45,566 bases of DNA from Bdellovibrionales bacterium GWB1_55_8 (GTDB taxonomy: Bacteria; Bdellovibrionota; UBA1018), in the NCBI GenBank assembly GCA_001769835.1, contig MEPR01000058.1:59806-105371 (forward strand), in the 5' to 3' direction. The notes under the pieces are model-generated. The model was given only the letters and a program-made list of their open reading frames with translations, made no database searches and was not told the DNA's origin. The stretch's first letter is position 1; every line of letters starts with the position of its first letter. The position numbers were made by a program, and so were the translations under genes. Shown here piece by piece: positions 639-38,350 of the stretch.

Positions 639-2783
639 TTATCCTTTCGCCGCAAAAAGAGTTCTCGAAATGCGCATCCCCTTCGCTTCCATGTCTTCGA
701 CGAACTTCGGAATGAACCCCGTCGGCACGAAACGCCCGATGATCTTGCGCTTCTTGTCGAGGCCTTCCTGTTTGTAAATGAAAATGTCCTGCAGACTGAC
801 CACTTCGCCCTGCATGCCCGTCACCTCACTGATGTGTGTGACTTTACGCGTACCATCGCTCAAGCGACTCTGCTGAATGATCAGGCCGACTGCTGATGCG
901 ATATTCTCCCGGATCGCCTTGGCCGGAATACCGAGCCCGGCCATCATCACAAGGGTCTCCAGGCGAGCGATCGCCTCCCTGGGATTATTCGCATGCAAGG
1001 TCGTGAGAGAACCGGAATGGCCCGTATTCATCGCCTGCAGCATGTCCAAAGCCTCACCGCTTCGACACTCACCGACCACGATACGGTCGGGACGCATACG
1101 CAAGCAGGATTTGATCAGGTCGCGGATACTGACCTCGCCCTCGCCCTCGATATTCTTCGGGCGAGCCTCCAGCCTGACGACATGATCCTGCCCGAGCTGA
1201 AGCTCGGCGGAATCCTCCACCGTGATGATGCGTTCGGTGACCGGAATGAAATTCGACAGCACGTTGAGCAAAGTGGTCTTACCTGAACCGGTACCGCCCG
1301 AAACCACGATGTTCAACTTGGCCTCGACGCAGGAGCGTAGAAAATCGGCGATTTCTTCGGTCATGGAGCCGAAGCCCACGAGGTCCTTCACTTCAATTCG
1401 CTTCTTCGGAAACTTTCGAATCGTGATCGTCGGTCCGCGAAGGGCCAGGGGCGGAATGATCACGTGCACACGAGAACCATCACGCAGACGAGCATCAACA
1501 TAGGGTACTTTTTCATCCACGCGACGCCCAAGCGGCGTCACGATGCGCTCGACGACGTTCATGACCTGCTGTTCGCTGCTGAAGACCACCTTGGAAAGCT
1601 GAGGTTTGCCATTACGTTCGATGTAGATCTGGTCACGCGCATTGACCATGATTTCCGTGACCGAGTCATCCGCAAGCAGGTCCTCGAGCGGTCCGAGACC
1701 AAGAGCCTCGTCCAGCACCTCCTTGACGATCTGGGCCTTGAGTTCGCGCGTGGGCAGAAGACCGGCCGAGTCTTCCGTGACCAGAATATCCAGAATCGCT
1801 TTTTGCGTCTTCTCGCGAAGGATCGCCCTCTGCTTGGAATCACTGGTATCGGTCGAAGTCTTCTTCAGGTCCATCTGCTCGACCAGCGCCTTGTGGATCC
1901 GCAACTTCATGGCCGTCCAGGGATCCAGTGCCGCATTCGAACTGCGTTCCATCGGATTGGATTTCTGCGAATCGGAGGAGGCGCTCTGCTGAACCTTGGC
2001 CACGACGCCTGAAGGCTTTTTCAGCTTGGACAGGTTCTCAAGAAGATTTACCTGCTGCATCCTGCGAACAATATCGTGATAGGCACGCGCCACCTGGGTA
2101 TTCGGGGCCGCGATGCACAGAGGCGCACTCCTGGCCAGAGCGCCGTCGCAGGTGGCCGGATCATCGGGAACCGCTGCAAAGACCTGGCGACCCAGGGTCT
2201 TCTGGATAACCGGAAGTCCGATCAGGCTCGCCTGGGAATATCGATTCACCACGAGCTGAACCATCTCGGGCGGAAACAAAAGTTCCTGAATCTTGCCAAG
2301 AACCCGCTTCGTCTGATTCACGACGATCGCATCGGCCGCCATCACGACAAAAATCGCGGTGGCAAATTCGAAGGTCTTCAGCGCCCAGGGTTCCGTGCCG
2401 TTGCCGCAATCCACGACCGTCAGGCCGAAGACGTTGGTGATCGATTTCAAAAAACGTCCGTAACCATCCAGATCAAAATCAGAGACAGAGAAGCTGTCCC
2501 TCGGTGCCCCGATAAAGCTGTATCCAACCTGCGCATTCACCATGAATGGTGCCAGGGACTTCGGATCAATCGTCCCACCCTGGAGCTTCGAAACATCAAC
2601 GATGCTTCGCTGCGGATTCTGGCCCAGAATGATATTCATGTCCCCGAGCGCGTGAAGATCAAGGTCCACGATCAAAGGTCGCTGCCGGAGTTCCTGCAGA
2701 TACGCAATGGCGAGATTCGCGGCAAATACGCTTTTGCCCACGCCCCCTTTGCCTCCGACTACGGCGATGATGTGTCCGGCCAT
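639..2783 (-). CDS. cpaF: Fused CpaE/TadZ-like (MinD-type) ATPase and CpaF/TadA pilus motor ATPase
   Basis: One 714-residue reading frame holds two ATPases that are normally separate Tad proteins. Residues 1 to about 260 are a MinD/ParA-type domain: deviant Walker A GGKGGVGKS at 10-18 and the switch segment VDLDLHALGD near 39-48, as in TadZ/CpaE localisation factors but without their N-terminal receiver-like domain. A polar linker of about 30 residues follows. From about residue 289 comes a complete CpaF/TadA motor of the secretion ATPase superfamily: Walker A GGTGSGKT at 496-503 (K502), the Walker B/His-box region RPDRIVVGECR and LTTLHANNP. The frame is continuous, and an ATG at residue 292 has no convincing ribosome site. 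The gene sits between cpaC (13 bases away) and tadB. The fusion would tie polar localisation to the motor; that consequence is inference. Confidence 0.93.
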   Translation of the reverse strand: MAGHIIAVVGGKGGVGKSVFAANLAIAYLQELRQRPLIVDLDLHALGDMNIILGQNPQRSIVDVSKLQGGTIDPKSLAPFMVNAQVGYSFIGAPRDSFSVSDFDLDGYGRFLKSITNVFGLTVVDCGNGTEPWALKTFEFATAIFVVMAADAIVVNQTKRVLGKIQELLFPPEMVQLVVNRYSQASLIGLPVIQKTLGRQVFAAVPDDPATCDGALARSAPLCIAAPNTQVARAYHDIVRRMQQVNLLENLSKLKKPSGVVAKVQQSASSDSQKSNPMERSSNAALDPWTAMKLRIHKALVEQMDLKKTSTDTSDSKQRAILREKTQKAILDILVTEDSAGLLPTRELKAQIVKEVLDEALGLGPLEDLLADDSVTEIMVNARDQIYIERNGKPQLSKVVFSSEQQVMNVVERIVTPLGRRVDEKVPYVDARLRDGSRVHVIIPPLALRGPTITIRKFPKKRIEVKDLVGFGSMTEEIADFLRSCVEAKLNIVVSGGTGSGKTTLLNVLSNFIPVTERIITVEDSAELQLGQDHVVRLEARPKNIEGEGEVSIRDLIKSCLRMRPDRIVVGECRSGEALDMLQAMNTGHSGSLTTLHANNPREAIARLETLVMMAGLGIPAKAIRENIASAVGLIIQQSRLSDGTRKVTHISEVTGMQGEVVSLQDIFIYKQEGLDKKRKIIGRFVPTGFIPKFVEDMEAKGMRISRTLFAAKG

Positions 2784-2796
2784 TCCTTTTGCCTTT

Positions 2797-4377
2797 CTAA
2801 TTCACTTTTACGCGGAAATTCTTCTTCATGTCCTCGGTGCCCTGAGAGGCGTTCTCGATGATCTGCGGCGTGACGAAAATCACGAACTGGGACTTCTTCT
2901 TCCGGTAAGCCTTCGAGCGCAGCAGATTGAAAAGAGGCTCGGTTTTGCCCTCGAACGCACCTGAACTCGGGTCGTCCTTGTTGAAATCCGTCCCCACATC
3001 CGAGGAAGTGACGCCAGCCACGGCGGCGCTTTCGTTGGACTTGACGTAGATCTTGGTCTCGACGTTATGAACCGCGGTAATAGGCGCACCACCGGCTGCC
3101 GGGGCACGACCCACGAGGTTCGATTGTGTCATGATCAGATCCATCTGGATATCTTCACTTTGCCCCAGGATCTGCGGAGTAACCGCGACTGACAGTCCGA
3201 CCGGCTGCTTGCCAGCCGCGACCTGGCCGCCCTGTCCGGCATAGGAGAATGGGAACTCCGTCTGCTCAACGAGTTTCGCCGGCTGTCCGCTGCGAACGAT
3301 CGTCGTGGCACTTTTCAGGATCCGCGCGTAACCGGCGCTTTGGGCACTCTGCAGTTTCGGGATCAAGCTTGAGATCGTGCCACTGAATGAAGCACCGCTG
3401 GTCCCCGCTCCGCCGGCTGTGGTGGTGCCGATGCTGATTTGCGGGTCTGCGGTAAAGCCCGGCTGCCATTTGAAGCCGAACACCTTGTTATAATCTTTCG
3501 ACAACTCGACAAAATGTACCGTCACGCGGACCAATTTATCCTGCTTCTTCGGCGCTGGTGGATTCACGACGATGAAGTTCTGGATCAAGCTCCGTTGAGC
3601 AGCCAATGATTGCGCTCCCTGGTCGCGTGCCAGAAGAGGATCGCCGGGTCTCGGATCAGGAAGATAGAGCAGCGCGATCTGCGCCGCGCGTTTGGCCTGG
3701 TCGCCGTTGTCGACCGTCCCTTCAAGGAAAATCACCCCGTTCACGACACGGGTTTTGACGTTCTGGGCAAACGCGTTCACGTCCTCCTGTATGCGCTTGG
3801 CGATCACCTGGAGCGCGAGCTGCGAGAGAATCGTCAGATTCATCACGTGCGCCTTGTAGTTGTCGTCCTGAATCACGGTGAGAAGCCTTCCATAATCAGC
3901 CGGCACCAGGACTTCACCCTCGATCACGATTCTGGAACCGACGATCCGAATGTCGATGCCTTCAATATCCCGAAGAAGATCGCGAAGCTCAGTTGCGACA
4001 CGAAGCAGGTTGGTTCCTGAAACCCGGACCTGGAAAATCAGGCGCAAAGTTCCTTCATCGTCGCGAACGCTAACGGTGGTCTCACCGGCCTTGAGCGGCT
4101 TGAAAATGATCTGTCTTTTGTCGCCAGTCTTCACCAGGGTCGTCGCGACGACCTGGGGATTTCCGATACTGATCCCCTGCGCCTCGGTATGAGCCTGGAA
4201 ATCGAGATCAATGGCCCGGTCCTCGCCCGTGGTTAAGACTATGGTACGGCGATCAGCGGCTTCTTCCGAACGATCACTCGTGAGCCTGGACCCGCGACTC
4301 TCTTCCCCGTACCCCTGCGACTGCGGTAGCGCGATCGCGAGCACCAGAAGCAATGCGAACCACCATCGTGAGCTCAC
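2797..4377 (-). CDS. cpaC: Tad pilus outer-membrane secretin CpaC/RcpA
   Basis: This is the secretin ring through which the Flp pilus crosses the outer membrane. The protein has a signal peptide (WWFALLLVLAIALPQSQG), then the RcpA/CpaC-type N-terminal domain (RAIDLDFQAHTEAQGISI, near residues 50-70), BON/N1-like domains in the middle, and a C-terminal secretin domain (VRVTVHFVELSKDYNKVFGF, and the conserved VGLSVAVTPQI strand). The frame is open upstream to 4428, but GTG at 4377 is preferred: it lies one base after the cpaB stop, has GGGGAGG about 8 bases upstream, and places the signal peptide at the N-terminus, giving 526 residues. Translation is probably coupled to cpaB. No Tad pilotin was identified in the window. 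Confidence 0.92.
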   Translation of the reverse strand: MSSRWWFALLLVLAIALPQSQGYGEESRGSRLTSDRSEEAADRRTIVLTTGEDRAIDLDFQAHTEAQGISIGNPQVVATTLVKTGDKRQIIFKPLKAGETTVSVRDDEGTLRLIFQVRVSGTNLLRVATELRDLLRDIEGIDIRIVGSRIVIEGEVLVPADYGRLLTVIQDDNYKAHVMNLTILSQLALQVIAKRIQEDVNAFAQNVKTRVVNGVIFLEGTVDNGDQAKRAAQIALLYLPDPRPGDPLLARDQGAQSLAAQRSLIQNFIVVNPPAPKKQDKLVRVTVHFVELSKDYNKVFGFKWQPGFTADPQISIGTTTAGGAGTSGASFSGTISSLIPKLQSAQSAGYARILKSATTIVRSGQPAKLVEQTEFPFSYAGQGGQVAAGKQPVGLSVAVTPQILGQSEDIQMDLIMTQSNLVGRAPAAGGAPITAVHNVETKIYVKSNESAAVAGVTSSDVGTDFNKDDPSSGAFEGKTEPLFNLLRSKAYRKKKSQFVIFVTPQIIENASQGTEDMKKNFRVKVN

Positions 4378-4378
4378 G

Positions 4379-5215
4379 TCATCGCCTCCCCGCCGGCACG
4401 CGCTGCAACCGGTTCGCCGCCGTGCCAAGTACGTCGACCAGCATCACCGGTTCAGTATTCACGCGTTCCGTATCATCGTTATTCCGTAAAGAAAGCGTGA
4501 GCGCGCTTTCCCCGTTCGCAAGCACCAGCGCCAGCGCCTGAGCCTGCGCGGGCTCGACCTCGAGCGTCACGGAGGTGAAGCTGAAATCCTGGGCCAGCGA
4601 CCTGACTCTTTCCTTGCCGCCAAAGGCATCCGCCTCAATCACGCGCGGAACGTTATTGGTGACCGACCGGCCCGCAGCGAGAACGACGACATCCTGCAGA
4701 ACGGTCTTCGCGATCTTGTTCTCCTTGCCCCCGCCGGCATCGAGTACCGCGATCAGGTCCACGCGATCTCCCGGCTTCACGAGCTTGCTGACCCCGCGAA
4801 CGTCATCGATCGGAATCGAGATGGCGCGGCGTCCGATAGCGACCTGGGGCGACAGGCCCGTACGGATATTCGGCTCCGATAATTTATTGAAGGTGATCTG
4901 CTCGCCTTTTTTGATCGGAACAACGGCAACCAGCCCATCCAGCTCTTTCATGCCGCGTTTCTTGTCGTCATCGGAAACACTGGGCTCGAAGTAGATGGCA
5001 GCGGGCTCGAGGAATCGCTTGGGTACAGTCTCGAGCCCTACGTGCGTCTCATTGACCGTCTCCATCTCCTTGATGTCTTTTTTCGCCTTCACGACGACGA
5101 TGGACGTTCCGAAATTCTTACGTGTCTTCTCCTCGATGCTTTCGACGTAGCTCTGCACGAAAAAGAACGCGAGAGCCGCCATCATGAGAGACATCGTTAG
5201 AGCCTTGTTATTCAT
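4379..5215 (-). CDS. cpaB: Flp pilus assembly protein CpaB/RcpC
   Basis: CpaB/RcpC is a periplasmic, membrane-anchored SAF-domain protein that works with the secretin in Tad pilus assembly. The 278-residue protein starts with an N-terminal signal anchor (ALTMSLMMAALAFFFVQSYV), followed by the SAF-type segment (KKDIKEMETVNETHVGLETV at about 44-65) and the CpaB domain core (AISIPIDDVRGVSKLVKPGD, then RVDLIAVLDAGG). Length and layout are normal for the family. Its start overlaps the upstream pseudopilin stop by four bases (ATGA), and its stop is one base from the secretin start, so all three are probably translationally coupled. Confidence 0.92.
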   Translation of the reverse strand: MNNKALTMSLMMAALAFFFVQSYVESIEEKTRKNFGTSIVVVKAKKDIKEMETVNETHVGLETVPKRFLEPAAIYFEPSVSDDDKKRGMKELDGLVAVVPIKKGEQITFNKLSEPNIRTGLSPQVAIGRRAISIPIDDVRGVSKLVKPGDRVDLIAVLDAGGGKENKIAKTVLQDVVVLAAGRSVTNNVPRVIEADAFGGKERVRSLAQDFSFTSVTLEVEPAQAQALALVLANGESALTLSLRNNDDTERVNTEPVMLVDVLGTAANRLQRVPAGRR

Positions 5216-28573: not shown

Positions 28574-29821
28574 TTACCTGATTCCTTTTAATCTTTCCAC
28601 ACGGGTGGCGCGAGCATCACCGCGAAGATCCGCACCCACGAGAATGTCACCCCGCTCCAAGCTTGCGGCTGGATCCTCTTCGCCCTTTGCCCGGTATCTG
28701 GCGCGCCGTTTCCCTTCCTGGCCGCAAACGAAAAATTCCTGCTCCCGACCCTCAGGATGTGCCGGGCTCACCAGCCTATAACGCTGCCCGGCCAGACTCC
28801 CGCGAAGCTCCGGGAAAAGCTCCTCGGTTGTCTTTTTTGTCTTCGACACGACAAGGTAGCTGAACGGCAGGCTCTTGCGGTCCAGTTCGGACATTTTATC
28901 AATCACGCGGAAATAAGGGGGCCGCCACCAGCTCACATCTTCATGACACCAGTCTTGTTCCGAAGAAAGGGCGCCACATGCCTGATGGCCAAGGCAAGGC
29001 AGCAGGATCCGATACTGGTCCGATTTCCTTTTTTCGAAAACCGCTAGCAGCTCTTTCCGCAGTTCGAGCAACTTCCTCGATTGAGCGCGAAGAGCAGGCT
29101 CGACGAGGATCACCAGGCCGCCCTCCTCCAGATGACGGTCCCAGCCGTCCACGAGAGCGCGCGCGATATCGGACGGCGGGTCCAGGCATTCGTTCAGAAA
29201 ATAACTCATGACCCATAAGCTGAAACTCGGGGCAGTCCTTGGCAGGAAGCCGCGGCCTATCTCGACGGTGCGATGAAAATCGCGTACTCCCCAATTTCGC
29301 CCCTGGGACTCGAAATAGCTGCCGGCCCATTTTGCCCCGAGTTGCAGCATCGGACGGTCCTGCTCGATCAGCGCCCAATTGCCCTCAGCAGGCAGACCCA
29401 CCGGAGCGTGAGCTTCACCTGCGGCAATTCCGGACGCACCCGCCGCAGGGCCGGCTCCGAACTCGATTGCCCGAAAAGGCAGTTTAGCCGGCCAGCGATA
29501 ACCCAGACGGGACAACTCCGCCCAGACTGAAGCCACCCTGAACAGGTTGGAAGGCATGAAATACAGGAAATAAGCGAGCCTCAAGTGGGCTGGGTTGGAA
29601 CTCTCCTTCCAATACCGCTCAAGCCCGCTGCCTTGCTCCTGCTCCTCACGATTGAAGATACTCGATAATTTGGTGACGTGCGGGACGACAGACCGGGCAA
29701 GAAATCGCTCGGAAGTGATGGCAGCCGAGTCAGGAAGCAGGCCTTGAGCGATCAGGAAGTCGCTGATTTGGGTCTGAAATTCACCCTGAAAGGCATTCGA
29801 AAGAGTAAGAGGTACGCGCAC
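28574..29821 (-). CDS. Rsm22-family ribosome-associated methyltransferase-like protein
   Basis: Rsm22/METTL17 proteins act in small-subunit ribosome assembly in mitochondria and have bacterial relatives. The 415-residue protein has the N-terminal helical region (AYFLYFMPSNLFRVASVW), a Rossmann MTase-like core with AIEFGAGPAAGASGIAAG, and the C-terminal cysteine cluster CLGHQACG then DWCHED near residues 271-290, matching the Cys pattern of the family's Fe-S site. Further conserved parts are WWRPPYFRV and PFSYLVVSK. Start is GTG 29821 preceded by GGTGGG. It is divergent from the biotin-carboxylase-like gene. Confidence 0.85.
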   Translation of the reverse strand: MRVPLTLSNAFQGEFQTQISDFLIAQGLLPDSAAITSERFLARSVVPHVTKLSSIFNREEQEQGSGLERYWKESSNPAHLRLAYFLYFMPSNLFRVASVWAELSRLGYRWPAKLPFRAIEFGAGPAAGASGIAAGEAHAPVGLPAEGNWALIEQDRPMLQLGAKWAGSYFESQGRNWGVRDFHRTVEIGRGFLPRTAPSFSLWVMSYFLNECLDPPSDIARALVDGWDRHLEEGGLVILVEPALRAQSRKLLELRKELLAVFEKRKSDQYRILLPCLGHQACGALSSEQDWCHEDVSWWRPPYFRVIDKMSELDRKSLPFSYLVVSKTKKTTEELFPELRGSLAGQRYRLVSPAHPEGREQEFFVCGQEGKRRARYRAKGEEDPAASLERGDILVGADLRGDARATRVERLKGIR

Positions 29822-29878: not shown

Positions 29879-31792
29879 ATGGGCTCCAAGAGCGGCCATC
29901 TCGGCCGAAAGCGCGTTCTCGTATTCGGCACGGGCGCGACCGCAAAAACGGTCGGCGAACGTCTGCGAGCTGCCGGCTTTCATGTCGGCTTTGCGCCCGC
30001 CGCTAAACTCGGTGACCCAGGGTCACCTTCCGGTCTTCCGATGCTTCGAGCCTTGCTGAAGGAATTCTCGAAGGAAGAACCTGACGCTCATTGCTTCGTT
30101 CATCCGGCCACTCATCCCTGGAGCCTTCGACCCGAACTTCCTCTTCTTGGCACCGAAATCGGAATTGTGACTTTGGTGCCACCGGCTCCCGCAGTAGCCC
30201 TGTTCGCGAATCGCCTGAATCTTCTGGGGATGGCCGAAAAACTTGGAATCCCGAATCTCGTCTTGAGCTTTGATCCCTTTTACAGTCCGCGCGAACTTGA
30301 ACGTTTCATGATCGAGCGGAAACTCGGCTTTCCATTGGTCCTGAAATCCGTGCGCCCCGCAGGGCCTTTCGGCGTGCGTATATTGCAGGCCTCGGGCAAT
30401 GAACTCGAATCCGCTCTGGCGCTCTGGATGGAGCAGCTCCGCCGGCGATCCGGTGAACTCATGATTTATCCGGAACGCTATTTGGACGATGCCCGTCAGG
30501 TCACGATCCCATTCGCCCGCTTCTCAGACGGAACACTTCATATATTTCCGTTCGTCGATACGTCGCTTCAATCCCGAAATCACGAAATCGCCCAGTTCTG
30601 CCCTGCTCAAGGAATAGACCTGCACGTGGAAACATTATTGCGGGATTGGGTGAGCCGCCTCGCTCAGGAATCCAAATATGTGGGTGTCGGCTCATTCCAT
30701 TTCATGCTTCAGGGCCGGGGGGCCTTCCTGATTGACGGCAGGGCCCGCCTGGAAAGCGGGTTTCAGCTCTGGGAAAAGATCGATGGTTCCGATGCGATCG
30801 CCTGGCAGCTGGCCGCTGCCCGGTTTTCCACGCAGTTACCTTCCAGGAACCCTCATCCCGACTGGAAATGCGGAACGCTTCTGAGAATCCTCGCGGAAGA
30901 TCCGGTGCTGCAGCTCCCTCAACCCGGAGTCGTTCATGAATTGTCGGAAAAAAGAAACTGGAGTTTTCCCGGAGCCCAGGCCGAGCTTCACATGAATTAC
31001 TCGCCAGGCGAGCGTGTTTCCACAAGCGGGCCGGTGGTCGCGCAGCTTCTCGCAAGCGGGCAGAACATGAAACAGGCTGCCGCGATCGCGCTCGGGGTTC
31101 TGAACGAAATCTGGATTTCAGGCTCGTTGCAGACCAACGAGCGTTTTCTTTCAGAGCTTTTGTCCCATCCGTGGGTGCGCGAAGGCATATTCCACCGCGG
31201 CTTCGTTGATGAGGAATTTATTCCCGGAGTACGACCTGATCCGGAACTACTCGCTGTAATGGGATCGGCTCCGATGGTCCATCCGGAAGTATCAGCAGCC
31301 GAAAACGGTGCGACCGCAGGTCGGTGGGCGGCCGGGGATCAGTGGATACGCCCCAATCCGGGTGACATTCAATGGCTCCGGGGTCCCGAATCATTTGCAG
31401 CCTCCGGACTCCCGGGCGTATCGGGCGAGGTAAAAACGACAGGGGGCCAGCAGTACCGCCTCACTGCCTACCCTATCCTGCCTCTTCCCGCGGGGAAGTG
31501 GCAGGTGCGGCTCGGCTCCTGGTTCATGAGCGTTCGAAAGATAATCCGATCCACTCAACACCCGCAGGTGTTGGCGCTCGTTTCAGGACGGGTACATGCA
31601 ATACTTTTCCGCGAGGGCAGCGTCGTCCCCGCTCACGAGCCTTTTCTCATCGTGGAATCCCTGGGGTATCTTGTGCCGCATGCATCTCCACGCGACTTGA
31701 AGATTCATAAATGGAAAGCGGGGCCCGAGCAAGAAGTCTCCTCGGGCGAGCCGCTGGCGGAAGTAAGCTTCTCGACCGATACCGCGCGATGA
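29879..31792 (+). CDS. Degenerate biotin carboxylase-BCCP fusion (predicted pseudoenzyme)
   Basis: A 637-residue protein whose first 350 residues follow the biotin carboxylase (BC) fold: pre-ATP-grasp KRVLVFGTGATAKTVGERL, ATP-grasp FPLVLKS, and two segments that align without gaps to BC. Where E. coli BC has SMQRRHQK this protein has SLQSRNHE, so the bicarbonate-binding Lys is Glu. Where BC has EMNTRIQVEHP it has DGRARLESGFQ, so the catalytic Glu296 is Gly while Arg292 stays. The last 60 residues align to a biotinyl carrier domain, but EAMKM is ESLGY, so no lysine is available for biotin. Carboxylation therefore looks impossible; the fold may have a regulatory or new ligase role. No carboxyltransferase gene is near. 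The start has no ribosome site. Confidence 0.8.
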   Translation: MGSKSGHLGRKRVLVFGTGATAKTVGERLRAAGFHVGFAPAAKLGDPGSPSGLPMLRALLKEFSKEEPDAHCFVHPATHPWSLRPELPLLGTEIGIVTLVPPAPAVALFANRLNLLGMAEKLGIPNLVLSFDPFYSPRELERFMIERKLGFPLVLKSVRPAGPFGVRILQASGNELESALALWMEQLRRRSGELMIYPERYLDDARQVTIPFARFSDGTLHIFPFVDTSLQSRNHEIAQFCPAQGIDLHVETLLRDWVSRLAQESKYVGVGSFHFMLQGRGAFLIDGRARLESGFQLWEKIDGSDAIAWQLAAARFSTQLPSRNPHPDWKCGTLLRILAEDPVLQLPQPGVVHELSEKRNWSFPGAQAELHMNYSPGERVSTSGPVVAQLLASGQNMKQAAAIALGVLNEIWISGSLQTNERFLSELLSHPWVREGIFHRGFVDEEFIPGVRPDPELLAVMGSAPMVHPEVSAAENGATAGRWAAGDQWIRPNPGDIQWLRGPESFAASGLPGVSGEVKTTGGQQYRLTAYPILPLPAGKWQVRLGSWFMSVRKIIRSTQHPQVLALVSGRVHAILFREGSVVPAHEPFLIVESLGYLVPHASPRDLKIHKWKAGPEQEVSSGEPLAEVSFSTDTAR

Positions 31793-31833: not shown

Positions 31834-32142
31834 ATGCCAGCCTATTCGCGTCGGGTGGAGGTCCCTGGAAAATCCTCCGAAGAACTGTACCAGGTCGTCT
31901 CGAGCGATATCGATCGCATGTTGGCGAAAAGCTCCATCGGAAACTTCAAGATTGATCGCGATCCGGTTCGCAAGGAAGTACGAGTGAGCTCGTCCATGTT
32001 CAGCGCAACATTGCTTTGCCAGAACGGTGTTCTGTCGCTGGATGGAAAACTCAGCCTTTTGGCCGCGCCGTTCCGATCCAAGATCGACGAGGGGATTGAC
32101 CGCTGGCTCCAGCGGCATTTCCAAGGCATCAAAAAAGCCTGA
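31834..32142 (+). CDS. Polyhydroxyalkanoic acid system-type small protein
   Basis: A 102-residue cytoplasmic protein resembling the family named PHA granule-region or polyhydroxyalkanoic acid system protein. It starts with a VEVPGKSSEELYQVVSSDI pattern, followed by a beta-rich middle (KEVRVSSSMFSATLLCQ, then LSLDGKLSLL) and the amphipathic end KIDEGIDRWLQRHFQG. The fold is probably SRPBCC-like. It lies six bases before murJ and 41 bases after the biotin-carboxylase-like gene, so the three may be one transcript. No phaC or phasin gene is visible, and its link to PHA here is unproven. Confidence 0.7.
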   Translation: MPAYSRRVEVPGKSSEELYQVVSSDIDRMLAKSSIGNFKIDRDPVRKEVRVSSSMFSATLLCQNGVLSLDGKLSLLAAPFRSKIDEGIDRWLQRHFQGIKKA

Positions 32143-32147
32143 ACTTG

Positions 32148-33845
32148 ATGACCACTGCAGAGGCCCAGAAATTATCATCCTCCGGCTCCTCCGGCGTCCT
32201 CAAAGCTGCTACCGTCATGGGTGCGGCCACATTCATCAGCCGCATACTCGGGCTTGTCCGCGAACAGGTCTTTGCCGTGCTGTTCGGGGCAGGCAACGCG
32301 ACTGACGCATTCAATGTCGCATTCCGCATTCCGAATCTTCTGAGAGACCTTTTCGCCGAAGGCGCCATGAGCGCCTCGCTCGTTCCTACTTTTACGCGAA
32401 CCCTTGCCGAAGACGGCGAACGCCGGGCCTGGCGTGTCGCTGGCCTGGTATTCCGGGTGCTTTTTGTTTCCGTCTCCATATTGGCTCTTATAGGCATTTT
32501 CTTTGCCCCGCAGCTGGTCGGGATCTATGCGAGCGCCTTCAAGGATGTCCCGGGCAAATTCGAACTCACCGTTCGGATGACCCAAATCATGTTTCCATTT
32601 TTTCCGCTCGTCGCCCTTGCTGCGGCAGTCATGGGCATATTGAACGCACGCGGGCGCTTCTTCATTCCTGCGCTTTCCTCGGCTCTTTTCAACGTGGGAT
32701 CGATCGTGGTGGGCACCGCCTCCGCACTGCTGCTCTTCAAATACGGCGCGCGCTTCGGCATTCAGCCGATCGAGGGGATGGCGTTGGGAGTCCTGGTGGG
32801 AGGCCTGGTCCAGGTGCTCTCTCAATTTCCATCACTTTATCGCTCGGGCTATCGCTGGCCGGTCAAAGAGCCGAGCGATCCGGCCTGGCATCGGGATCCC
32901 AGACTGCGGGCCATGCTTTGGATGATGGTTCCGGGAACAATCGGACTGGCGGCAACCCAGATTAACATCCTCGTGAACACGGTGCTCGCCACCTCACAGG
33001 GTCCCGGCGCGGTCTCCTGGCTCAATTACGCCTTTCGGTTGATGCAATTTCCCATTGGAGTCTTCGGCGTCTCGCTGGCGGCCGCAACCCTTCCACGGGT
33101 GTCGCATCTCTTTGTTTCGGGCGATATCGCCGGGGTTCGCAACACCTTGAACAGCAGCCTTCGGCAGGTGATTGCAGTGAACATTCCGGCCTCAGCGGGG
33201 CTGGCTTTTCTTGGGTTTCCAATCATTGAACTTTTATTTCAGTACGGCCGTTTTTACCCTCAGGACACCCAGGCAACGGCTATTGCCCTCGCCATGTACG
33301 CCGTTGGCCTGACCGCCTACTCCGCGGTCAAAGTGCTCGTTCCGGCCTGCTACGCGCTGGGGAATACCCGGATTCCGGTGATCTCGAGCATTGTGGCGGT
33401 GTTTGCCACGATCGGACTCAATTTGCTCATGATCAGGCCCTTCGGATACTGGGGTCTCGCCCTGGGGACGTCGCTGGCAGCGATCCTCAATTCAGCGTTT
33501 CTGCTTCGTGCCATCCGCATGATCCTGAGGCAGCATGGATCAGACCTGGAGTATGCTCCCCTGCTTCGGACCTTGAGTGGCCAGGTGCTGGTCGCTCTGG
33601 TGATGGGCTCGGCTTGCTGGGTAACCCATCTGGGGTTCCGACACTATGTCCCCGATGTTCTATTTGTTGAAATATTCGGTGTTTCGGCCCTGCCGATCAT
33701 CAGATCGATCAAAGTGTTCGCTCTGGTGATCGAAGGGATATTCCTCACATTGGTGCTGGCGCGCATTTTCCGGTTGCGTGACACGACCGATGCCTATGAT
33801 TTTTTTGCAATAAAAATCAAAAAGAAGCTGCAGAGCCGCTCCTAG
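32148..33845 (+). CDS. murJ: Lipid II flippase MurJ
   Basis: MurJ flips the peptidoglycan precursor lipid II across the inner membrane. The 565-residue protein shows about 14 hydrophobic segments and the family signature near the N-terminus: AATFISRILGLVREQVFAVL, DAFNVAFRIPNLLRDLFAEG and AMSASLVPTF. Arg residues lining the MurJ cavity are in these segments. The segment TQIMFPFFPLVALAAAVMGI is also typical. ATG 32148 is chosen over TTG 32145. It follows the small PHA-type gene by five bases. Confidence 0.93.
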   Translation: MTTAEAQKLSSSGSSGVLKAATVMGAATFISRILGLVREQVFAVLFGAGNATDAFNVAFRIPNLLRDLFAEGAMSASLVPTFTRTLAEDGERRAWRVAGLVFRVLFVSVSILALIGIFFAPQLVGIYASAFKDVPGKFELTVRMTQIMFPFFPLVALAAAVMGILNARGRFFIPALSSALFNVGSIVVGTASALLLFKYGARFGIQPIEGMALGVLVGGLVQVLSQFPSLYRSGYRWPVKEPSDPAWHRDPRLRAMLWMMVPGTIGLAATQINILVNTVLATSQGPGAVSWLNYAFRLMQFPIGVFGVSLAAATLPRVSHLFVSGDIAGVRNTLNSSLRQVIAVNIPASAGLAFLGFPIIELLFQYGRFYPQDTQATAIALAMYAVGLTAYSAVKVLVPACYALGNTRIPVISSIVAVFATIGLNLLMIRPFGYWGLALGTSLAAILNSAFLLRAIRMILRQHGSDLEYAPLLRTLSGQVLVALVMGSACWVTHLGFRHYVPDVLFVEIFGVSALPIIRSIKVFALVIEGIFLTLVLARIFRLRDTTDAYDFFAIKIKKKLQSRS

Positions 33846-33881
33846 ATGAGCTAAGCTTACAGCTTGGGAGGGTGCAATAAC

Positions 33882-34328
33882 ATGGCGACCCGCAGAGAGA
33901 CCGTTCACTTGCTTTGCAAAAGCATTATCACCCGGCTGGAAAATCAGAAATCCATCAGCTTTCCCCCCCGCCTGCGACAGATTGTTCATGACGAGGTATT
34001 CGGCCTGATTGGCCCTTACATCCTCACGGACCAGGACCTTCGGGAACGTGCCCTGGCGAAAGTAGGCGCACGGGCTGAAATGCTCGAAGACACGCAATTC
34101 ACCGACAGCGAGCAATACAAAGCGGCCAAAGCAGTCGTTAGAAGCACTTTCGGCGACGATGAGCTGAATGGTTTTTATTTCCAGAGAAACATCAAAGCGA
34201 TCGCGGTTATCATTCGCGAATATCTGATGCGCTCATCTCACATCGATGATGTTTACGAGACAGACGAAGACCTCGAAAAGCAGATCGTCGAAGTCATTCA
34301 GAAGTTCGACGCAGCCAACCTTCATTAA
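33882..34328 (+). CDS. DUF507-like protein
   Basis: A 148-residue soluble helical protein resembling DUF507, a family common in delta-proteobacterial lineages, usually about 90 or 180 residues. The sequence looks like a duplicated unit: LRQIVHDEVFGLIGPYILTD followed by DQDLRERALAKV, and later IAVIIREYLMRSSHIDDV followed by DEDLEKQIVEVIQKF. Function is unknown. ATG 33882 is preferred with GGGAGG about 10 bases upstream; TTG 33864 is in frame but overlaps that site. It ends just before a strong terminator. Confidence 0.6.
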   Translation: MATRRETVHLLCKSIITRLENQKSISFPPRLRQIVHDEVFGLIGPYILTDQDLRERALAKVGARAEMLEDTQFTDSEQYKAAKAVVRSTFGDDELNGFYFQRNIKAIAVIIREYLMRSSHIDDVYETDEDLEKQIVEVIQKFDAANLH

Positions 34329-36256: not shown

Positions 36257-38350
36257 ATGACTTTGAAAATCGGCAGAACCGAAAATCCACACCTTAAGTT
36301 TAAGCGTCTTTGCCTCGTCCTGATCTTTGCCTGCTCGGGGTTCGCTCACGGAACCGAGAATCTGTCAGCGGTCGTTCAAGCGCATGATTTCTCCGCTGGC
36401 CAGCAGGTCCGTGCCTTCCTGAAGGACATGATTAACGCTGGCTCCAGCAGTAAAGAGGCCCGCGCGCAGAGCGTACGCAAGGCTTTTGCGGACCACCCGG
36501 AAGTTTTCCAGATGCTTGCAGAAACGAACGATCCAAAAACCCTGCTCAAGGAAGCGGGACTACAGGACGTGCAGATCCCGCTTTCGGGAAACAAAGAGGT
36601 TTTCGAAGAACTCCAGACCCTCACGGAAAACGAGATCCGCGACTGGATCATTGATACCGGCTTACAGAAGGAACTCGGACCCATTTCCGAACATCTGAGA
36701 ATCGAGAGCGCGATGAGTACCGTGGTCGCGGACCTGGGGCAAAAGAGAGGCAAGCACTTTTCAAAAGCGTTTGCGAATCTTTCGCCGCAGGCTCGAATCG
36801 CCGCACTGAAAACCATTCACGACGGCCGCTTCGATGAAATCGCCGAAAAAGTGAATCACCTGCTCCTGCAGGCAAAGTTTTCCGATTCCGATGCGATTCG
36901 TCAGCTGACAGGTTCCGGCGCGATTAAGTACGACAAGATTCCCGTACCCGCTGAGGAAATCAGCGGGTTCATAGCGAGGTATTTCGATGATCTTGATCTC
37001 GCCACAAGGCAGAGGGTTCTGATCGGCCTGCTCGAACTTCCGCCTGGCGCTTCAGCTGAACGGCAACTTTCCGTATTCATTCAACGCGCCGGCCCGGCAT
37101 TGCAGAAATTTTTCCAACTCGCCGGCAGAGGAGCCGAGTCAGTGGTTTTAAAGAAAGTTCTGGAGGAACTCCAGGCCAACGTCGAGCCTTTTCCAGTCGA
37201 ACATGCCCGCGCGACAATCGAAAAATCGCTGGGCGGTCCTGTCGAAAAACTGTTCCGCTCCTTCGACGACACACCCCTTGCGGCCGGAACCATCGGCCAG
37301 GTCCATCGCGCGGTTTTACACAATGGCAAAGAAGTGATCATCAAAGTGCGCCGTCCCGGGATCGTGGAACAAGTCGCGAGCGAAATGGAGATTCTACGGA
37401 GAATAGCCGCTGACACACGCATGTCCGGCATGGTGGAACAACTCTGGCAGTCGCTGCTTCGAGAGCTCGATTTCCGCATAGAGGCAAAAAACCTCGATAA
37501 GGGTGTGAAAGTCTACTCGAACCCGAAAAAGGGAATCGAGATTCCGGCACGCATCAAGAAATTTCCGATTGTGGATGATGTTCTCGTGGTCGAGATGGCA
37601 AAAGGCAGGCAACCCCGGAAAATGAAGACCTTGTTGATCAGACGTGGCGAAGCCTTGTCAGGCCTGCTCGAACAATGGATTGATGTTGCAATTTTTCAGG
37701 ACGGCTTTTTCAACAGCGATCTCCATCCGGGGAACATTTTCCTGGAAAGGGTGAGAAAATCCGATCTGGACCTCCTGATTCACCCCATCGATTTCGGCAA
37801 CAGCGGCCGTTTGACCATTTCCGAAAGACGCGCGTTCATGCGCCTTTCATTGGGTGCGATGGCGCACTCCCCGGATCGGATGATGGAGGCGGTGACGCCA
37901 CTGGTGTCCTCCTTGACCGATGCGCAACGAAAGGCCGCGCTGAAGGCGCTTGAAGGCGTGGACTTCTCGAAACTGAAGACCAGCGAAGCGGTAGAACGCT
38001 TTCTCGGCGCGGTCGTGGCCCAGGGAGTGGAAGTTCCCGCGGACCTCCTGAATTTCCAGCGCGGCAAGGTCATGCTCGAGGGACAGATTGCGGACATCAA
38101 CAAGAAACTGAGTCGGCTGAACGCAGGGACCAAACCTTTCGATCCCGAAAAATTGTACAAACGACTCGCATTTCGTCGCCTGGCGGTTGCACTGCCGAAG
38201 CAGGCCGTCAGCGGCAAAGCGCGCAGAAAAGCCGTGGTTTCGGCGTCAGACCTGACACGCGCCCTGCTGGATAGAAGCGGTCTTGTCGATGCACACTTCA
38301 ATGTGGCGAATTCCTGCTTGATTCGCGGCCTTATTCAATGGATCCGGTAG
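36257..38350 (+). CDS. ABC1/UbiB/AarF-family kinase-like protein with export signal
   Basis: A 697-residue protein. Residues 1-32 look like a signal peptide (basic KFKR, then LCLVLIFACSGFAHG); the Cys in IFAC could even be a lipobox. Residues 33 to about 270 are helical with no known domain. From about 275 comes a complete ABC1 kinase-like domain: KFFQ in place of the usual KxGQ, A-rich loop LAAGTIGQVHR (341-351), K363 in VIIKVRRPG, catalytic-loop NSDLHPGN (D488, N493) and DFG (D512). ABC1 proteins are ATP-binding and normally cytoplasmic or organellar, so export would be unusual. GGAGAG lies five bases before the ATG. The 3' end overlaps the convergent gene by 20 bases. Confidence 0.82.
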   Translation: MTLKIGRTENPHLKFKRLCLVLIFACSGFAHGTENLSAVVQAHDFSAGQQVRAFLKDMINAGSSSKEARAQSVRKAFADHPEVFQMLAETNDPKTLLKEAGLQDVQIPLSGNKEVFEELQTLTENEIRDWIIDTGLQKELGPISEHLRIESAMSTVVADLGQKRGKHFSKAFANLSPQARIAALKTIHDGRFDEIAEKVNHLLLQAKFSDSDAIRQLTGSGAIKYDKIPVPAEEISGFIARYFDDLDLATRQRVLIGLLELPPGASAERQLSVFIQRAGPALQKFFQLAGRGAESVVLKKVLEELQANVEPFPVEHARATIEKSLGGPVEKLFRSFDDTPLAAGTIGQVHRAVLHNGKEVIIKVRRPGIVEQVASEMEILRRIAADTRMSGMVEQLWQSLLRELDFRIEAKNLDKGVKVYSNPKKGIEIPARIKKFPIVDDVLVVEMAKGRQPRKMKTLLIRRGEALSGLLEQWIDVAIFQDGFFNSDLHPGNIFLERVRKSDLDLLIHPIDFGNSGRLTISERRAFMRLSLGAMAHSPDRMMEAVTPLVSSLTDAQRKAALKALEGVDFSKLKTSEAVERFLGAVVAQGVEVPADLLNFQRGKVMLEGQIADINKKLSRLNAGTKPFDPEKLYKRLAFRRLAVALPKQAVSGKARRKAVVSASDLTRALLDRSGLVDAHFNVANSCLIRGLIQWIR

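Follow-up and report, generated by a model that had tools for sequence, protein, structure and literature searches.

What does a protein built like a carboxylase subunit do if its catalytic residues and its biotin attachment site are both changed? This question is raised by an open reading frame in the DNA analysed here (the window), a stretch of 45,566 nucleotides from Bdellovibrionales bacterium GWB1_55_8. A first-pass annotation had described it as a biotin carboxylase (BC) fused to a carrier domain (BCCP), both without the residues needed for function. The features of the locus, with the frame designated pseudo-BC, are as follows.

28574-29821, minus strand: Rsm22-like protein, the divergent neighbour conserved across the order (PF09243, 5.6e-12)
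29879-31792, plus strand: pseudo-BC, a putative pseudo-alpha subunit of 637 aa with an ATG start, comprising a BC body, a BT domain and a lysine-less carrier domain
29879-31213, plus strand: BC-like body, about residues 1-445
31240-31545, plus strand: BT-like domain, about residues 455-555, with a helix, a hook with Trp483 and an antiparallel beta barrel
31562-31774, plus strand: carrier-like (biotinyl) domain, about residues 562-632, with ESLGY at residues 593-597 and a nearly invariant His601
31834-32142, plus strand: small PHA_gran_rgn-like protein (PHA-type), 102 aa, the conserved next gene (PF09650, 6.2e-4, below its cut-off)
32145-33845, plus strand: MurJ lipid II flippase with a TTG start and an ATG at 32148 (PF03023, 2.3e-111)
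33864-34328, plus strand: conserved protein of 154 aa matching no family, encoded downstream of murJ, with relatives in 25 loci

A homologue of acyl-CoA carboxylase alpha subunits

The comparison of the window protein with Pfam yielded CPSase_L_D2 (2.7e-10) and Biotin_carb_C (8.2e-9), both above the cut-offs, and the search against the PDB detected MCC alpha (3u9s, 7.9e-29) and E. coli AccC (about 1e-22). The NCBIfam carboxylase models reached 1e-21, yet only about one-tenth of their curated cut-offs, and no model was a specific fit to any of 26 family members. Automatic annotation is likely to mislabel such proteins as biotin carboxylases. The AlphaFold2 model, obtained with the family alignment as input, had a pLDDT of 91.5 and a pTM of 0.91, and Foldseek matched it best to PCC and MCC alpha subunits along their full length, in alignments of about 700 columns (E = 5.6e-38). 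The highest TM-score (0.70) was found for a human PCC structure deposited as the BCCP-BC conformation. The BC fold was thus recovered by sequence as well as by predicted structure.

Because the match extended along full-length PCC/MCC alpha subunits, the protein consists of three domains (BC, BT and carrier) and not of BC and BCCP alone. A BT domain was located between the two, with beta-barrel strands at residues 482-555 and the hook Trp aligned. The first-pass annotation had recognized the BC and BCCP parts and had missed the BT domain of what is a full alpha subunit. The window protein is truly homologous to the alpha subunits of acyl-CoA carboxylases. With the MCC, PCC and GCC alpha subunits it shares the domain order (BC-BT-BCCP), the fold and the BT hook Trp, and its carrier domain aligns to theirs without gaps; Glu296, Asn290, the biotinyl Lys and most ligands of Mg and ATP are lost, however, identity is only about 20% and no carboxyltransferase gene adjoins it.

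Residues lost and kept in the family

Active-site positions were numbered after E. coli AccC, with which the protein was aligned using MAFFT L-INS-i. Glu296 is the bicarbonate-activating base of E. coli biotin carboxylase, and the Mg ligands, ATP ligands and dimer-interface residues of AccC were assigned from the established knowledge of this enzyme. The changes K238E, H236N, N290R and E296G and the retention of R292, all previously read by eye, were confirmed in the alignment; E276H, E288D, K116R, H209Q and E211T were found in addition, and K159, E201, Q233 and R338 were also kept. The catalytic set Lys238, Glu276, Glu288, Asn290 and Glu296 reads E, H, D, R and G in the window protein.

The comparison of 37 pseudo-BC sequences with 13 true BCs (E. 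coli AccC and 12 from the same or related genomes) revealed that Glu296 was retained in no family member and Asn290 in a single one (L068), with many different residues taking position 290. Lys238 was lost in the window protein, though 19 of the 37 members keep it, so its loss is no family marker; the markers are the loss of Glu296, Asn290 and the biotinyl Lys. Of the changes listed in the first pass, those at Glu296 and the biotinyl Lys were conserved in orthologues. Glu276 was present in 21/37, Glu288 in 14/37, Gln233 in 23/37 and Arg292 in 31/37 sequences, Glu201 was invariant (36/36 members with a letter there) and position 159 was Lys in 30 members and Arg in five. The Gly-rich loop was degenerate and the Mg ligands E276 and E288 were missing in many lineages; several members retained K116, H209 and E276 together with an acid at 288, and L064, L062 and L068 were among those keeping most ATP-site residues. 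All 13 true BCs, including three from the window's own genome, were intact at every BC position compared.

Taken as a set, 22 active-site positions had a mean entropy of 1.85 bits in the family, against 1.95 bits for all columns, and 68% of random position sets were at least as variable; the same positions were nearly invariant among the true BCs. New invariant or nearly invariant residues peculiar to the family were W81, W183, P211-F212, W298, W412 and H601.

The carrier domain aligned without gaps to the biotinyl domains of true alpha subunits, ESLGY standing opposite EAMKM or ESMKM as the first pass had proposed, and the family motif around this site was E(S/A/T)-(L/H)-(G/Q) in place of EAMK/ESMK. 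The biotinyl Lys was found in none of 36 members. Together with the absence of Glu296, this agrees with the suggestion that both halves have lost carboxylase function, and catalytic activity and bound biotin are both predicted to be absent. Trp483 aligned with the BT hook Trp of true alpha subunits, and the position was aromatic in most members. Three loci (L129, L130 and L131) of family f2, which belongs to the same order and yielded no pseudo-BC, encode fused alpha subunits whose biotinylation motif, ESMKM, is unusual and the closest to the ESLG of pseudo-BC.

Distribution, selection and genomic context

An alignment-based scan of genome contigs identified orthologues in 43 of the 291 Bdellovibrionota genomes sampled, all 43 belonging to the window's own order, and partial copies in G008 and G016. 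Among the 291 genomes none was found outside this order, the remaining families of the class and the remainder of the phylum included, nor in family f2 within it, and a scan of viral contigs detected no relatives. The genomes compared were MAGs of uneven completeness, and the named relatives were labelled mostly Bdellovibrionales or Oligoflexia. Pseudo-BC is a new, order-wide orthologous family and not a one-off; no described inactive biotin carboxylase family was found in the openly accessible literature, which is weak evidence of absence, as most subscription papers lay outside the search.

In a tree built by a quick method and containing long branches, the family and the true BCs were placed on opposite sides of one branch (SH-aLRT 100), so a single origin is the simplest reading. 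The frame was open in about 40 genomes and dN/dS of close pairs was 0.03-0.22, comparable to the values that these pairs gave for MurJ, Rsm22 and the PHA-type gene. The family is under strong purifying selection, as had been supposed from the open frame. Pseudo-BC was cleanly lost in G013 and three members of genus g20, which have only 50-65 bases left between Rsm22 and the PHA-type gene; it is accordingly dispensable in these two lineages. In G016 the protein at the same site has shrunken to 503 aa (L163, 2286-3797, plus strand), an apparent intermediate towards loss. In G010 it is split over two overlapping frames of 494 and 182 aa (L127, 4182-6100, minus strand), a frameshift of either the genome or the assembly.

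The conserved gene order is Rsm22 (divergent), pseudo-BC, PHA_gran_rgn-like gene, murJ and the gene for the 154-aa protein. In the window, 41 bases separate pseudo-BC from the PHA-type gene and 2-5 bases separate the latter from murJ, in accordance with the operon-like arrangement noted at first reading. Of 33 loci, 30 contained an orthologue of the PHA-type gene, and murJ was present in 27 loci. Both genes lie on the same strand with tight spacing, and 21 loci have a lytic transglycosylase-like gene farther downstream. In genomes without pseudo-BC, murJ likewise adjoins the PHA-type gene, and some loci keep pseudo-BC without murJ. A fold search with the PHA-type protein gave only weak TBP-like or START-like matches. 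In three loci (L040, L042 and L059) the gene for a multi-helix membrane protein of 630-670 aa, repeat-like in its C-terminal part, separates pseudo-BC from the operon genes that follow.

No carboxyltransferase gene was found among the conserved neighbours, and on contig C58, which carries the window's pseudo-BC, none lay nearer than about 32 kb. The genome search for an intact accB/accC pair, proposed earlier as a check, located AccC and AccB on contig C82, with AccA/AccD-type proteins on C73 and C79, and two further sets of BC, BCCP and carboxyltransferase on C21 and C58. The lysine-less carrier paralogue thus coexists with intact carboxylases. AccA/AccD-type matches were also present in genomes without other carboxyltransferases; in G005 and G006 nothing beyond such matches was found, an absence that is likely and not proven at 86-89% completeness, and both nevertheless keep pseudo-BC and its hook Trp.

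Possible roles of pseudo-BC

The best explanation, to which we assign a probability of about 0.85, is that pseudo-BC is a dead, non-catalytic pseudo-alpha subunit, derived from the alpha subunit of an acyl-CoA carboxylase and maintained by selection. One ancestor of this Bdellovibrionota order would have lost Glu296, Asn290 and the biotin-accepting Lys, and the three-domain fold would have stayed under purifying selection afterwards. Such a protein could neither make nor carry carboxybiotin and hence would act by binding a partner; it probably performs a new, non-enzymatic job. The invariant E201, the K/R at position 159 throughout and the R292 of most members count against this explanation, as do the members that keep most ATP-site residues, and since E201, K159 and R292 are largely kept, nucleotide or anion binding may survive. 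The loss of pseudo-BC in G013 and g20, which still have carboxyltransferases, was also counted against the explanation.

As for the partner, the leading guess, offered tentatively, is the heteromeric acetyl-CoA carboxylase (ACC), which pseudo-BC might regulate or help to assemble by means of its lysine-less carrier domain. As no carboxylase gene adjoins pseudo-BC, the ACC link rests on analogy with the plant BADC, a BCCP paralogue without a biotinylation motif that assembles or inhibits heteromeric ACC (PMC11926652). In both cases a carrier domain was retained though its biotinylation motif was lost, and an intact carboxylase coexists. BADC, however, lacks BC and BT parts, and its binding to ACC has been shown, whereas that of pseudo-BC is a guess; descent from BADC is unlikely because the window protein goes back to an alpha subunit that was already fused. 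AccC has a homologous BC body, but all its catalytic residues are intact, no carrier is fused to it and its dimers form through residues that pseudo-BC has lost (R16, R19, E23 and R366), a loss that set back a simple heterodimer with AccC. Coexpression with murJ might perhaps tie malonyl-CoA supply to envelope growth. That a whole alpha subunit became a dedicated, order-specific regulator linking malonyl-CoA or fatty-acid supply to lipid II export by MurJ and cell-wall growth is a speculative extension and, as a whole, quite unlikely.

Other functions were weighed against the same data. Pseudo-BC could be a scaffold or regulator of the adjoining envelope genes, binding the PHA-type protein and modulating MurJ or another envelope step independently of any carboxylase. 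The tight, co-directional spacing of the PHA-type gene and murJ in most loci and the downstream lytic transglycosylase-like gene point this way, but those two genes adjoin each other where pseudo-BC is absent and so do not depend on it, and it persists in some loci without murJ; we regard such a role as possible and somewhat doubtful. A little less probable is a nucleotide or metabolite sensor, whose ATP-grasp cleft would bind ATP/ADP or an anion without turnover while the carrier domain reports its state to a partner. The conservation of E201, K159, Q233 and R292 and the members with K116, H209, E276 and an acid at 288 are consistent with it; however, these residues could be structural, the Gly-rich loop is degenerate and the Mg ligands are missing in many lineages, with E276H in the window protein itself.

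The hook Trp would suit a dummy alpha subunit that docks on the beta subunit of an acyl-CoA carboxyltransferase, since in GCC/MCC the beta subunit buries this residue (PMC4673880). Such a partner is improbable as a general role because G005 and G006 keep both protein and Trp with only AccA/AccD-like matches, and genomes without pseudo-BC still have beta subunits. A different ATP-grasp ligation, suggested in the first pass, would account for the kept fold and some ATP-site residues, but it was weakened by former active-site positions that are as a set no more conserved than average columns, without a conserved replacement set, with variable Mg ligands and with many residues at position 290; it is very improbable. 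The clean losses in G013 and g20 and the damaged copies in G016 and G010 are what a decaying pseudogene without function would leave, whereas the open frames in other genomes and the new invariant residues are not, and decay, the least credible reading, was rejected by the dN/dS values.

Plant BADC, a carrier alone, was the sole carrier-type precedent found for the continued use of a dead carboxylase part; here, a complete three-domain alpha subunit would have turned into a pseudoenzyme that is conserved at a locus shared with a cell-wall flippase. Its function is open to direct testing, since the genome also contains intact paralogues and some lineages have lost pseudo-BC naturally.

Two other features of the window were noted. 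A MinD/ParA-type ATPase domain (residues 6-211) is fused before a CpaF/T2SSE ATPase (residues 361-638) in the protein encoded at 639-2783 (minus strand), within a Tad-like pilus cluster with a secretin (2797-4428) and RcpC/CpaB (4379-5215). At 36257-38350 (plus strand), an ABC1/UbiB-type atypical kinase has an N-terminus resembling a signal sequence, and the same signal-like N-terminus was found in its relative in L041 (16369-18567). If the signal sequence is true, this UbiB-like kinase would lie outside the cytoplasm.
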